Positions 972 through 9,386 of a stretch of 38,938 nucleotides of DNA are shown here, in pieces; position 1 is the first letter of the stretch; every line of letters begins with the position of its first letter. The notes under the pieces are model-generated. The model worked only from the letters and a program-made list of their open reading frames with translations. It searched no databases and was not told the DNA's origin. The DNA is from Caryophanales bacterium (GTDB lineage Bacteria; Bacillota; Bacilli; Bacillales; DSM-4216): contig JADBKC010000014.1 in NCBI GenBank assembly GCA_014896555.1, forward strand, positions 1 through 38,938, given 5' to 3'. Position numbers and translations under genes: made by a program.

Positions 972-2426
972 GAGCATTTTGCAAAATTAGAATTTTGGGA
1001 TGAAAGTATAAAAAATTAAGCACTCGACAAATTGCTACCAGCATGTCATTTTACAAAATATTACAAAAATCTTGTTTTTGGGCATACCTGCAGAATTTTT
1101 TACAGTGAATTTTTTTAAGCGGCTTCTCTTTATTTTCCCTTGCCATTGCTAGCGCTGAAACAAGTAATACAATGGCGTTCAGGTAGATATGGGTCTTTAC
1201 TTTTTCAATTCCCCATACATGTAAGGAGTTTGCTGTAAGAAAGCTTTTCATTCTTGAATTACAGCGTTCTACACTTGTTCTCTCGTTGTAAAGCTCTTTC
1301 CAACGTTTTGTATCACGGTGCGGATTGGAATATCGGCGCACATCCTTTTTGATGTCGACTTTTACCACCATTCCATAGTTGGAAGATGAACAGGCTGCCA
1401 TTCCTAGTGGGCCATCCACTTTGCCGGTTGCGTGAGGACATCTAAACTTGAGTTGGTCCTTATCAGCTCCCCAATCAGTCTTTTCATAACCCACGGAGCA
1501 ACGCGGAGTTCCATTGGAAGAAATCCCTTCAGGAGGCTCTTTTTCATTACGCAAATTGAGTGGGATAATGGCTTGCGCTCCATTGGTTTTGGCCGATTCA
1601 TAGTTTTTTAGTTGGTCATATCCCCCATCCATGATCAGGAATTCGATTTTGGATTTGGTACGATCTGTCACTTGTTCGATTAATTCTGGCGGGACTTCTC
1701 CATCGTTTACATGGGCAGGGGTTACCTCTATCGCCGTTGGCAATTCGCTTGCGGTATCGACGGAAAGGTGCATCTTATAGCCAAACCAAGTAATCTTATT
1801 GCCGAGGGAATAAAAACTTTGCGCCCCAATTGGCATTACCTGTATGTTGACTACCGCTTTTTGGGCTGTTTTTTCTCATAGGCATCAATGGCGGCACTGT
1901 CGATGGCCTGGTGGCTGCCATCCATAACTCCTTCCTCTTGAGCTAACTGTACCAAGTCAAGGAAGATCTTTTCAGCCAGCTGTTTTTTGATGAGTGCCGC
2001 AAAAACCCGGCTAAGAGTAGAGATAGACGGTGCAGGGCGATCAATCGCTAAACCGCATTGATAACGGAAACGTAGATCTTTATCCAATCGATGATGAAGG
2101 GCGGTAAAGGTGTCGATGCCTTCGAGTGGGGCAGCGATGAGGACCCTTAGAATCCCTTCTCTGGAATGACCGTCAGCCCCTTGGGGTGAAGAACTTCTCA
2201 ACTGTTTGGCATAAGGGCGTAAATCAAGTGAGCTAAAAAAGATGGGTAATTTCTCTTTTGACTCTAATTTTTGCAGTTCTTCAAAGGAAAATAGACTTTC
2301 TTGTAGAATATACAAAGTGACTTCCTCCTTTTGATTTTTTGTGGTTTCGTCACTTCAAAAATTCTACATTTTAGGGGTGAAGTCCTTTTTTAATGGCTCT
2401 TGCGCTGAAAAATATGCAAAATGCTC
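972..2426 (-). mobile_element. Insertion sequence, 1455 bp, IS1182/IS5-like DDE type, inactive copy
   Basis: The ends are inverted repeats: GAGCATTTTGCA at 972-983 and its complement TGCAAAATGCTC at 2415-2426, a perfect 12-base match. Outside them the same five bases AAAAT occur on both sides (967-971 and 2427-2431), the expected target duplication, although an A-rich 5-mer could match by chance. The only gene inside is a DDE transposase on the minus strand, broken by frameshifts. Size, domain content and single-gene layout fit an IS1182-like element; the family name is inferred from the protein, not from a database. Confidence 0.8.
1051..2315 (-). pseudogene. DDE transposase (DUF772 N-terminus plus DDE domain), frameshifted
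   Basis: The N-terminal half (2315-1851) starts at TTG 2315 behind GGAGG and carries the DUF772-type region ending in DSAAIDAYEKKQPK. The C-terminal half (1836-1051) holds the DGGYD motif and the YNERTSVERCNSR signature with the last catalytic acid. The halves are in different frames. The bridging peptide (SGSQHTGNANWGAKF, then YSLGNKITWFGYK) is recovered only by removing one base from a five-A run (1858-1862 on the plus strand) and one from a five-T run (1812-1816 on the plus strand). The intact protein would be about 420 residues. Two separate +1 shifts argue against programmed frameshifting; decay or homopolymer sequencing errors are the alternatives. Confidence 0.85.
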
Positions 2427-4395: not shown

Positions 4396-5817
4396 ATGCT
4401 GGAAAATGAACGAAAACAGTTGGAATACGCCATCAAAGAAATTACGGAAGTTGCTAGTGGATTTGGACTTGACTTTTACCCGATGAGATACGAAATCTGT
4501 CCTGCCGAAATTATTTATACATTTGGAGCGTATGGGATGCCGACAAGATTTTCTCATTGGAGTTTTGGAAAGCAATTTTTTAAAATGAAGCTGCATTATG
4601 ATTTAGGTTTAAGCAAAATTTATGAGCTTGTCATCAATTCTAATCCTTGCTACGCTTTTTTGCTTGATACAAATTCCCTTATCCAAAATAAATTAATCGT
4701 TGCCCACGTATTGGCACACTGCGATTTTTTCAAAAATAATGTTCGTTTTCAAAATACCAATCGAGACATAATCGAAAGTATGGCAGCGACAGCAGAGCGG
4801 ATCCGTCATTATGAAATTCAGTACGGAAAAAAGGAAGTGGAACAATTTATTGACGCTGTTTTGGCGATAGAAGAGCATATCGATCCGTCTCTTATGAGGC
4901 CGCAGCTTGCGTGGAGTGTGGAAGATTTAGAGGAGCGGGAGGAGGAAGAAGATCAAAAGCCAGCATCTCCATACGACGACTTATGGTCGCTGGACGAGAA
5001 AAAGCCGATAAGGAAAAATAGCGAAAAAAAGAAAAAAAAATTTCCTCCTCACCCCGAAAAAGACTTAGTGTTGTTTATTGAACAATATAGCAGGGAATTA
5101 ACGGAATGGCAGCGGGATATTATGACCATGATCAGAGAAGAAATGCTTTATTTTTGGCCGCAGTTGGAAACGAAGATTATGAACGAAGGCTGGGCTTCGT
5201 ATTGGCATCAACGAATTATCCGTGAATTAGATTTAACATCAGATGAAGCCATTGAATTTGCCAAATTAAATGCCAGTGTCGTTCAGCCATCTCGAACAAG
5301 CATAAATCCGTATTACCTCGGTTTGAAGATTTTTGAAGACATTGAAGAACGTTGGAACCATCCTAGTGATGAAATGAAAAAGCGCGGTGTCGTTCCTGGT
5401 TCTGGCCGAGAAAAGATATTTGAAGTCCGAGAAATTGAATCGGATATTTCGTTTTTACGCAATTATTTGACAAAGGAATTAGTGATGCGCGAAGATATGT
5501 TTCTTTTTCAAAAGCAAGGTCATGATTATAAAATTGTGGAGAAAGATTGGAAAAACGTTCGCGATCAGCTGGTGAGTATGCGGGTGAATGGCGGATTCCC
5601 GTATATAACCGTCAACGATGGCGACTATTTAAAAAATGGGGAATTGTATTTAAAGCATTGGTATGAAGGCATCGAGCTAGACTTGAATTATTTAGAGAAA
5701 GTGCTTCCTTATATTTACCAATTATGGGGCCGCCCCGTTCATATGGAAACAGTCGTCGAAGAACGCCCCATGCTGTTTACTTACAACGGTCGGAGCGTTC
5801 AAAGAAAATATTTATAG
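4396..5817 (+). CDS. spoVR: Stage V sporulation protein R
   Basis: 473 residues, the usual length for SpoVR, a mother-cell protein needed for spore cortex formation whose biochemical role is unknown. The N-terminal SpoVR domain fills residues 1-330, recognisable by the [30 protein letters not shown] and [10 protein letters not shown] blocks. A charged linker (EEREEEEDQ, then a lysine run) lies near residues 177-215, and a conserved C-terminal domain follows. The start ATG 4396 has AGGGGGGAAAG 6 bases upstream. The stop codon TAG (5815-5817) ends on the first G of a GGGGTCTGACCCC palindrome. Confidence 0.95.
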
Positions 5818-5860
5818 GGGTCTGACCCCTTTTGTGCTTTATAGTGAAAAAGGGGTCGAC
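5817..5860. repeat. REP-like palindrome copy A (GGGGTCTGACCCC)
   Basis: The head GGGGTCTGACCCC spans 5817-5829. The block GACCCCTTTT pairs with AAAAAGGGGTC (5849-5857) around a 15-20 base loop. It is a diverged copy of the perfect palindrome at 7560-7604, sharing the head, the central CTTTA and the AAAGGGGTC tail. A further half-site GGGGTC lies at 5866-5871. It begins on the last base of the spoVR stop codon. Confidence 0.8.
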
Positions 5861-6822: not shown

Positions 6823-7568
6823 ACTTGCTTACTGTATTGTTAAGTTTTAGCTACGTAATCTTCTCACTTTTTCTATCAACGGCCTTTAAATTAGGGCTTG
6901 GCCGTGACTTAATGATCACCAGTATCCGCGCGACCATTCAATTGTTGGTGATCGGATATATTTTAAAAGCTGTTTTCGGTTTTGATAATCCCCTTGTCAT
7001 TATTGTAATGCTATTACTTATGATTACGGTAGCAGCAAAAAATGCGGCGAAACGTGGAGAAGGTTTGCCTTATATTTTTTGGGAAATTTTCGTAACGATT
7101 TCCATTGTTGAAATCATTACACAAGCGTTCTTGCTTGGATTACATATCGTGCCGGCAACTCCGCCGTATATTATTTCGATCAGCGGCATGATTATCGGAA
7201 ACTCCATGGTCATCGCGAATCTTTTCTTAAATCGTCTAAAAGGTGAGCTGGAGATGCGAAAAGAAGAAGTCTTGCTTGTGCTGTCGCTTGGAGGCAGTAT
7301 AAAACAATCCATCTATCCCATTTTAAAACAGTCTATTCGTTCAAGCCTCATTCCAACCATTGAAAGTCAAAGAACCATTGGACTTGTTCAACTCCCTGGC
7401 ATGATGACAGGTCAAATCGTAGCAGGCGCCGATCCTATCCAAGCGGTTCGCTTTCAACTATTAATTGTATTTATGATCATGTCCGCCGCCACTCTCACTT
7501 CTATTATTTTAGGATTCCTCACTTATCCCGGCCTATTTAACAAACATCAACAATTAAATGGGGTCTGA
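6819..7568 (+). CDS. ABC transporter permease, FetB/YjkA (UPF0014) type
   Basis: A 249-residue membrane protein with about six or seven hydrophobic segments. The family block IGNSMVIANLFLNRLKGEL and the GSIKQSIYPILKQSIRSSLIPTI region, the likely coupling loop to the ATPase, are present. It starts at ATG 6819, overlapping the stop codon of its ATPase partner. The last residues (NGV) and the stop TGA (7566-7568) are encoded inside a GGGGTCTGACCCC palindrome. The native end was therefore probably altered by insertion or formation of that repeat; the body is of normal family length. Confidence 0.88.
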   Translation: MNLLTVLLSFSYVIFSLFLSTAFKLGLGRDLMITSIRATIQLLVIGYILKAVFGFDNPLVIIVMLLLMITVAAKNAAKRGEGLPYIFWEIFVTISIVEIITQAFLLGLHIVPATPPYIISISGMIIGNSMVIANLFLNRLKGELEMRKEEVLLVLSLGGSIKQSIYPILKQSIRSSLIPTIESQRTIGLVQLPGMMTGQIVAGADPIQAVRFQLLIVFMIMSAATLTSIILGFLTYPGLFNKHQQLNGV

Positions 7569-7604
7569 CCCCTTTGTGGCTTTAAAGCCACAAAGGGGTC
7601 AGAC
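7560..7604. repeat. REP-like palindrome copy B, perfect 42-bp inverted repeat
   Basis: From 7563 to 7604 the two 21-base arms are exactly complementary with no unpaired centre (GTCTGACCCC...GGGGTCAGAC, with TTTAAA in the middle). One extra GGG precedes it, completing GGGGTCTGACCCC at 7560-7572. A T-rich run (TTCATTTTTTTC) follows, so the transcript could also terminate here. It lies 84 bases upstream of the RAYT coding region. Confidence 0.9.
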
Positions 7605-7693
7605 TTCATTTTTTTCTTGCTTTCAAGTTTGAATAGTAATTATAATTAAAATATCTGAAATATGAGAAACATCAAAATTGAATAGAGGTGGTT

Positions 7694-8260
7694 ATGATAG
7701 CAAGAAAGCCGCGTGTGTGGTATCCAGGGGCTATTTATCATGTTACGGCTCGTGGAAACCGTAAAGAAGCTATTTTTCGTGATATTGTAGATTATCGAAC
7801 CTACTTAAAGTATCTCCGCATTGTCCGCAGCCGTTATCCTTTCATCCTTCATTCCTATTGTTTAATGAAAAACCACGTTCATCTTCAACTAGAAACGATT
7901 CAAGATCCCCTTTACATCATAATGAGAGACTTTCATTCAGAATATGCGATGTATTTTAATCGTCGACATGATTTAGTGGGTCATGTATTTCAAGGCCGCT
8001 ATAAAGCTCAACTCATTGAAAATGATCATTATTTCCTTAAAGTAAGCCAATATATCCATCTTAATCCAGTTAGAGCAAGTCTGGCAGAAAAGCCAGAGGA
8101 TTACATTTGGAGCAGCTACCATTCTTATATTACAGGGAAAGACAATCCTAACATCGATAAACAAAAGACATTGTCTTATTTCACAAAAGATCGCTCGCGA
8201 ATCACCTACCAGCAATATGTGGAAGAGCATATGAAAGAAAATCCATTCTCTACTCTTTAA
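7694..8260 (+). CDS. REP-associated tyrosine transposase (RAYT), Y1/HUH type
   Basis: 188 residues of the Y1-transposase fold: N-terminal RVWYPGAIYHVTARGNR, the metal-binding HUH motif HVH at 61-63 (MKNHVHLQ), and the catalytic tyrosine Tyr120 in YIHLNPVRAS. These single-strand nucleases cut at REP-type hairpins and are thought to spread or maintain them without the IS200 ends. ATG 7694 is preferred over GTG 7688 because GAGGTGG precedes it. GGGGTCTGACCCC palindromes lie on both sides (7560-7604 and 8287-8299), as expected for a RAYT and its target. The reading frame and catalytic residues are intact, so it may be active. Confidence 0.92.
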   Translation: MIARKPRVWYPGAIYHVTARGNRKEAIFRDIVDYRTYLKYLRIVRSRYPFILHSYCLMKNHVHLQLETIQDPLYIIMRDFHSEYAMYFNRRHDLVGHVFQGRYKAQLIENDHYFLKVSQYIHLNPVRASLAEKPEDYIWSSYHSYITGKDNPNIDKQKTLSYFTKDRSRITYQQYVEEHMKENPFSTL

Positions 8261-8286
8261 AATATTTAAAGTGTTAAAATATTAAA

Positions 8287-8299
8287 GGGGTCTGACCCC
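8287..8299. repeat. REP-like palindrome copy C (GGGGTCTGACCCC)
   Basis: An exact 13-base copy of the head of copies A and B, 27 bases after the RAYT stop codon. Directly after it, from 8302, begins coding-like MFS transporter sequence lacking its 5' end, so this copy marks the boundary of the inserted or rearranged segment. Confidence 0.85.
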
Positions 8300-8301
8300 A
8301 G

Positions 8302-9386
8302 GATACTCAAACGGCTATTTTAGTGTCGGCTGTAAATGTAGGTCCTATGTTTTCGATGATGTTTTTAGGAAAAGCGATTGATCAATATGGGGAGCGCTGG
8401 ATTTTGGGGATTAGCAGTTTGTTGCTCGGGCTCACGATGGGGGCAACGCTATTTTCTCATTATTATGTCTTCTTAATCATAATGTTAATGATCGTGGGGC
8501 GTGGTATGAAGCTTCGCAACCTGGGGGAAGTAAAGCGATTGTCCACTGGTTTCCAGCTAAAGAAAGAGGACTGGCAATGGGGAGCAGACAAACAAGTATT
8601 CGATTAGGCGGAGCGATTGCATCTGCTAGCATTCCATGACTGTCCGTTCATTTTGGAGTGTCAACGGCCATTATAGCCTAAGCAGGTCTAGCGATTGTCA
8701 ATGGATTGTTATTTCTATTCCTCTATCGGGATGCTAACAAACAAAAAGCGAGGGGGAAAAACAAATAGATCCTAAAGAAAAAGAAAACTAGAAATCTATT
8801 GGCCTTAATAAAAGCCTTTACCCTGTTTTCTTTGTAGGGGTTTCGCTTGTTTCTCTCCAATTTATATTGGTTGCCCACTATATGGGATTTTTAATGAACG
8901 AATTAAAAATCTCTCTCACAAAAGTTGGATTGTATTTAGCAGTGATTCAAGTTTCCGGAATGTTGTGATTTTGGCTTGGATCAGTGACACATGGTTCAGA
9001 GGAGATCGAGTTCATCCTTTTAAACTTTGTATCGGCATGCTATGGTGTCTATTTTCTCTCTTTTATGGTTGAATGAGGATGCACCTGTCTGGCTTTTTAT
9101 TGGAATCAGTGTTATATTCGGTTTCTTTGGAATGGACTGATACAGTCTCTATATCGTTTATATTTCGGAAAATGGGCCGGAAGATCAAGTTGCCTATACA
9201 GTGAGCATTGGTCTCACTTTGAACCAAATTGCCATTATATCGGCTCCTATTTTATTCGGAAAGACCGTAGACTGGCAAAAAAATGATTTTATGGCGTGGA
9301 TTTTCCTTATGATTATTATCGCTTTCGGTGGGCTTATGTGATTAAAATTACCGAGCAAATCTACCTTAAAGAAAGTAGATAGATAA
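8302..9386 (+). pseudogene. MFS transporter remnant, truncated and multiply broken
   Basis: Translation across frames gives a major facilitator protein: DTQTAILVSAVNVG..., GKAIDQYGERWILG (the loop 2-3 region), then after a shift near 8500 WYEASQPGGSKAIVHWFPAKE, and later LNQIAIISAPILFGKTVDW. The first transmembrane segment and start codon are absent; homology begins 2 bases after palindrome copy C. In-frame stops occur at 8637, 8679, 8766, 9138 and 9339, with a further frameshift near 8965. The YEASQPGG.AIV.WF block resembles sugar-phosphate and aromatic-acid permease subfamilies. The substrate may have been linked to the catabolic cluster downstream, but that is a guess. Confidence 0.85.

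Follow-up and report, generated by a model that had tools for sequence, protein, structure and literature searches.

A RAYT gene in Bacillota and its probable cognate palindromes

Pairs of a RAYT transposase and its REPIN elements are established in Pseudomonas and, as the REPtron (TnpAREP), in E. coli (PMC3116915, PMC8266576). In a Caryophanales bacterium, the 38,938 nucleotides of contig JADBKC010000014.1 that were analysed here (GCA_014896555.1; hereafter the window) carry a RAYT gene lying between palindromes. Is this gene the cognate partner of the palindromes beside it, as a sequence-only reading of the window had proposed, and does such a pairing extend beyond one genome?

The RAYT gene (7694-8260, plus strand), of the TnpAREP-like HUH-Y1 type, has two in-frame starts: GTG at 7688 and, downstream of it, ATG at 7694, which is preceded by AGAGGTGG and is the preferred one, yielding a protein of 188 aa. 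In this numbering HVH occupies residues 61-63 and the catalytic tyrosine is Tyr120 within YIHLNP, and the protein also carries GHVFQGRY and WSSY. It matched Pfam Y1_Tnp (2e-9) and the NCBIfam model "REP-associated tyrosine transposase" (4e-22; 78.7 bits, just below the cut-off of 80), so that the earlier assignment as a real transposase with these catalytic residues is borne out, with numbering from the ATG. NHVH and YIHLNP were kept in an alignment of 29 relatives; both the HUH motif and the Y...NP feature of class 2 TnpAY1 are thus present. The AlphaFold2 model (pLDDT 92) matched E. coli TnpAREP bound to its REP hairpin (4er8) with Z 18.4 and an rmsd of 2.4 over 155 residues, with IS608 and ISDra2 far below (Z about 10-11); at the sequence level the match to 4er8 had an E of 0.05. 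The protein stops about 45 residues past the SS motif, with short helices only in that part of the model, and the C-terminal helix-turn-helix tail of subclass 2.1 is absent, both from the model and by Pfam, which gave no HTH match.

Between the window species and a sister species of the same family (G001), dN of the RAYT gene was 0.027 and dS 0.528 (dN/dS 0.05), and the gene is syntenic in the two. Low dN relative to dS, together with synteny in the sister species, thus identifies the RAYT as a gene under strong purifying selection at a fixed position, not a roaming IS. It had been called single-copy, which holds for the intact gene (one copy in the window's own genome, G000, a 2.99 Mb draft) and fails once decayed genes are counted: G000:C177:4398-4802 holds a second RAYT of 40% identity, interrupted by an internal TGA, with a palindrome class of its own, GGTGACAGGCACC, beside it (L091:1878-1890). 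Elsewhere in the window, an IS1182-like transposase gene (1051-2315, minus strand) is split across two reading frames.

Exact copies of GGGGTCTGACCCC stand at 5817-5829, 7560-7572 and 8287-8299, and when up to two mismatches were allowed, seven matches were found in the window against 0.27 expected, a number reached by none of 100 shuffles. The left REPIN-like element (7560-7607) measures 48 nt and consists of GGGGTCTGACCCC, a 22-nt inverted-repeat spacer and GGGGTCAGACttc; its inner part (7563-7604) is the longest perfect palindrome, at 42 bp. As single-stranded DNA the element folds at -27.1 kcal/mol (z -11.7), and a T-run follows it. The right palindrome (8287-8299), again GGGGTCTGACCCC, begins 26 nt past the RAYT stop codon, a position conserved in the sister species; the gene therefore lies, as claimed, between the 42-bp palindrome and a 13-bp copy of its head. 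The third element (5817-5857) sits directly at the stop codon of spoVR and has an ortholog, GGGGCCTGACCCC, in the sister species. The sequence-only reading had described it as a diverged copy: it is indeed present, but its 13-bp head is exact and only the second half has decayed.

In the whole genome GGGGTCTGACCCC occurs seven times, on five contigs, where base composition predicts 0.019 copies, and its reversed control occurs 0 times; the enrichment expected by the sequence-only reading is therefore real. Five of the seven copies are at a stop codon. The UPF0014 gene ends at 7568 with a TGA that belongs to the left palindrome itself (7560-7568), and its protein thereby gains a C-terminus in ...NGV; a second gene of this genome (L002:727-1509) also takes its TGA stop from the palindrome.

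Downstream of the RAYT lies a 5'-truncated MFS transporter fragment (8300-8607, plus strand; ORF 8323-8607). Alignment with the sister species, where the 5' end of the gene is intact, showed that about 125 bp are missing (upstream region, start and N-terminus), and one edge of the deletion abuts the right palindrome. This edge may be a trace of activity, though as a single case it proves no mechanism alone. At the level of the genus, five of six comparable sites were common to the two species, the sixth had decayed and one region was absent, and no recent insertion was seen in this comparison. Sites that are shared or decayed indicate age, not activity: the palindrome system of the window's genus is low-copy, old and nearly static.

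Evidence on the pairing itself came from 299 genomes of the order, 176 with and 123 without a RAYT, surveyed for the palindrome family GGKGHCWGDCMCC. At least five family palindromes were present in 117 of the 176 RAYT-positive genomes, versus 10 of the 123 RAYT-negative ones (Fisher p 6e-26). The association held when RAYT presence was permuted inside families (p 2e-4; mean 23 copies with a RAYT vs 2.5 without, in 23 mixed families), so that enrichment tracks the RAYT across relatives as the sequence-only reading anticipated. By variant, GGGGTCTGACCCC accounted for 1,237 copies in 93 genomes, GGGGACAGTCCCC for 297 in 40, GGGGTCAGTCCCC for about 196 in 66 and the class GGTGHCWGDCACC for 2,676 in 166; reversed controls across the order gave one or two copies in scattered genomes. 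The GGTGHCWGDCACC class peaked in G077, G088, G045 and G167 (208, 153, 120 and 115 copies respectively). The ten RAYT-negative genomes held 5-45 copies, which may be relics after RAYT loss; candidate relic populations are those of G053, G035, G234, G051 and G157 (23-45 palindromes, no RAYT found; G157 is 80% complete).

Does a RAYT have its own palindrome at hand? Among 130 RAYT genes with flanks, from 115 genomes, a family palindrome lay within 300 nt of 66 and at 300-600 nt of 16, and shuffled flanks contained 0; near about half of the 130, a palindrome of GGKGHCWGDCMCC form was missing. A de novo count, made with no prior motif, returned CTGACCCC as the most frequent G+C-rich 8-mer at up to 300 nt from RAYTs (49 of 130). 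The same palindromes were also found near RAYTs in Bacillus, in Butyrivibrio (in the hybrid form GGTGCCTGACCCC), in many Lachnospiraceae and in Desulforamulus putei, whose RAYT (L205), as an example from Clostridia, is flanked by the palindrome left and right. A third outer class, GGTACCWGGTACC, stands beside some RAYTs (L178, L179, L204 and L219). Thus the window genome is no special case: many genomes of the order have the palindrome-RAYT system, and Clostridia have it too.

Moreover the variants match. Of 30 genomes with one variant expanded and one beside the RAYT, 25 had the same variant in both roles (permutation p 1.5e-4), and the copy number elsewhere in the genome was much higher when the same variant flanked the RAYT (Mann-Whitney p 4e-11 for TCTGA and 8e-10 for ACAGT, with a third p of 7e-6); for the GGTG class the medians were 31.5 copies with and 1 copy without such flanking (p 3e-6). 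On the RAYT tree the outer class (GGGG, GGTG or GGTA) was clustered, requiring 14 changes against a shuffled mean of 20.5 and a lowest shuffled value of 17. Coevolution of the inner letter (T or A) was also tried and gave no signal (7 changes vs 8.2 shuffled); since this letter does not follow the RAYT tree, fine specificity may be loose.

The dispersed copies have a defined form. Doublets accounted for 59 of the 97 palindromes in copy-rich stretches, with a start-to-start spacing of 39 or 31 nt in 25 of 30, so that the doublets are 52 or 44 nt long, with inverted units that form one long hairpin. The two lengths, 8 nt apart, were seen in L258-L274. The 52-nt form reads GGGGTCTGACCCC-CACYGCGTTAA-NNNN-TTAACGCRGTG-GGGGTCAGACCCC, and the window element at 7560-7607 follows the same plan with its 22-nt spacer. 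Over 23 copies the 24-bp hairpin stem had 87% paired cells, and in 12 pairs both partners had changed; covariation was 0.215 versus 0.119 (sd 0.013) in shuffled and at most 0.10 in slid alignments. Separate small hairpins, considered as an alternative conserved structure, covaried more poorly than the full hairpin. Copies were biased to intergenic DNA (20 of 75 within ORFs, at a coding share of 76%). The 13-nt core has an invariant CWG centre and symmetrical variants. Over 52 REPIN ends no bases outside the palindrome were conserved (at most 0.35 bit), nor was any tetranucleotide; hence the GTAG/GTGG foot of the canonical REP is absent. In sum, two inverted units in one hairpin, fixed spacing, extragenic location and abundance above chance, all of them features of a REPIN, were found.

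Possible signs of mobility came from outside the window's genus. One genome, G131, holds 110 copies, and its congeners G028, G070, G102 and G183 hold 3, 18, 0 and 11 respectively. When the REPIN flanks of G131 were compared with six congeners, the three sites examined corresponded to orthologous gaps without the element, with a different copy nearby in G183. The pattern fits amplification within one lineage, in gaps too diverged to yield insertion boundaries or target duplications.

Could such palindromes be explained otherwise? They might be ordinary intrinsic terminators, or sites of an unrelated host protein, with the RAYT merely situated among them: the hairpins are strong and near stop codons, as in five of the seven copies of the window's genome, and the left element has a T-run after it. 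However, terminators would need no RAYT, whereas palindrome abundance is tied to the RAYT within families and the palindromes are nearly absent from most RAYT-free genomes; moreover the variant in the genome matches that beside the RAYT, the CWG core with its symmetrical variants is sequence-specific, and the spacing of doublets is fixed. We regard this explanation as quite improbable. Still less credit is due to the RAYT and its flanking palindromes being a conventional autonomous IS (of the IS200/IS605 type, or a "TIRtron") whose solo ends are the scattered palindromes, even though the gene is flanked on both sides, Clostridia included, and "TIRtrons" of that kind were described by Di Nocera 2013 (PMC3733652). 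A gene present in one intact copy, with no identical copies, whose place is shared with the sister species and whose dN/dS is 0.05, is not what such an element would show; the protein has Y...NP instead of the Y...Q of IS200 transposases, and the scattered copies are built as doublets around a defined spacer, unlike IS ends.

A further option is complete domestication of the RAYT, with the host using it in repair, at replication forks or for regulatory cutting at palindromes; the palindromes would then be selected working sites that the RAYT did not spread. The strong purifying selection on the gene, the old sites common to the window species and its sister, and the position of copies at gene ends all agree with it. 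On the other hand, copy numbers differ widely inside genera, and lineage-specific bursts, such as that of G131, with 110 copies where its congeners have 0-18, resemble amplification; full domestication is therefore unlikely, if less so than the two preceding explanations.

The pairing of RAYT and palindrome proposed by the sequence-only reading is thus supported, and the window and its relatives probably represent a cognate RAYT-REPIN system of Bacillota with a palindrome code of its own, to which binding, cleavage, transposition and a host benefit would belong. In this system the window would hold a locus resembling a REPtron, in which a RAYT inherited vertically and conserved by the host acts as an HUH single-tyrosine endonuclease of single-stranded DNA and is accompanied by its cognate palindromes. 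What the RAYT recognises, as a single-stranded hairpin, is most likely the 13-nt palindrome (family GGKGHCWGDCMCC, here GGGGTCTGACCCC), and two inverted units flanking an inverted-repeat spacer would make up the REPIN-like element. Variant matching and lineage-specific bursts suggest indirectly that the REPIN may be mobilised in trans by its cognate RAYT, which would cut and rejoin it while the DNA is single-stranded; copies would thus spread between genes, often to stop codons. Each RAYT would be paired with a palindrome class of its own: GGGG..CCCC, GGTG..CACC or perhaps GGTA..TACC.

How does this system relate to those described before? Nunvar 2010 retained only RAYTs with abundant REPs (PMC2817692). 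Di Nocera 2013 named as TIRYTs some RAYT-like genes whose terminal inverted repeats carry GGGGWSAS; the TIRs were long and moderately abundant in few genomes, some TIR families were repeated, the main text gave no example from Bacillota (Bacillus appears only for Bcr1), and no cross-species link between copy number and transposase was shown (PMC3733652). Quentin 2018 placed TIRYTs in TnpAY1 subclass 2.1, equivalent to RAYT group 1 of Bertels, for which neither automatic nor manual search found REPs (PMC6006769). As the automatic search required GTAG or GTGG (PMC6006769), a palindrome of the GGKGHCWGDCMCC type could not pass it. In the open-access literature searched, we found no earlier report of the palindrome in a RAYT context; priority is accordingly uncertain.

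If the proposed system is correct, it provides the substrate that has been missing for the largest RAYT group, and it makes the partnership of REP and RAYT, worked out until now in Proteobacteria, testable in spore-formers. Paired variants would offer ready natural swaps of protein-DNA specificity, and the orphan palindromes of RAYT-free genomes would serve as natural knock-outs.

With TnpA of IS200/IS605 elements (IS608, ISDra2) the window RAYT shares the HUH-Y1 core (Z about 10-11), but those proteins have Y...Q and belong to identical multi-copy elements, whereas the window RAYT has Y...NP and one intact copy; moreover its extra C-terminal part is common to TnpAREP and not to IS200/IS605 TnpA. 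Subclass 2.1 fits the protein: NHVH, FQ, Y[IV]HLNP (here YIHLNP) and the SS motifs of PMC6006769 Table 1 are all conserved. Members of that subclass, however, have a median of 238 aa with a C-terminal HTH tail (heterogeneous in 2.1.2), in contrast to the 188 aa without a tail found here, and the protein appears nearest to subclass 2.1.2, with uncertain membership. The TIRYT/TIRtron likewise has a transposase of the same branch, and its motif fits the flanking repeats, which contain GGGGTCAG or GGGGACAG on one strand; both palindromes flanking the window gene have GGGGTCAG on one strand. Thus what was described as the TIR motif GGGGWSAS corresponds to a single strand of this palindrome, which Bacillota carry in dispersed and doubled copies matched to the RAYT.

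The Pseudomonas REPIN-RAYT and the E. coli REPtron resemble the present system in the HUH-Y1 fold (4er8, Z 18.4), a single palindrome-flanked gene copy, inverted doublets that form a long hairpin, extragenic spread and a cognate variant for each RAYT. Their REPs have a GTAG/GTGG foot, whereas here there is none and the signal is the 13-nt GGKGHCWGDCMCC with its invariant CWG centre; a palindrome without a foot would demand another rule for the choice of strand and cleavage site by the RAYT. We lean towards the view that Bacilli and Clostridia have a REPIN branch of their own, in which group-1 RAYTs keep up to some 200 REPINs without a GTAG guide and specificity is set by the letters at positions 3 and 5 of the strand-alike GGKGHCWGDCMCC, which are symmetrical and exchangeable.
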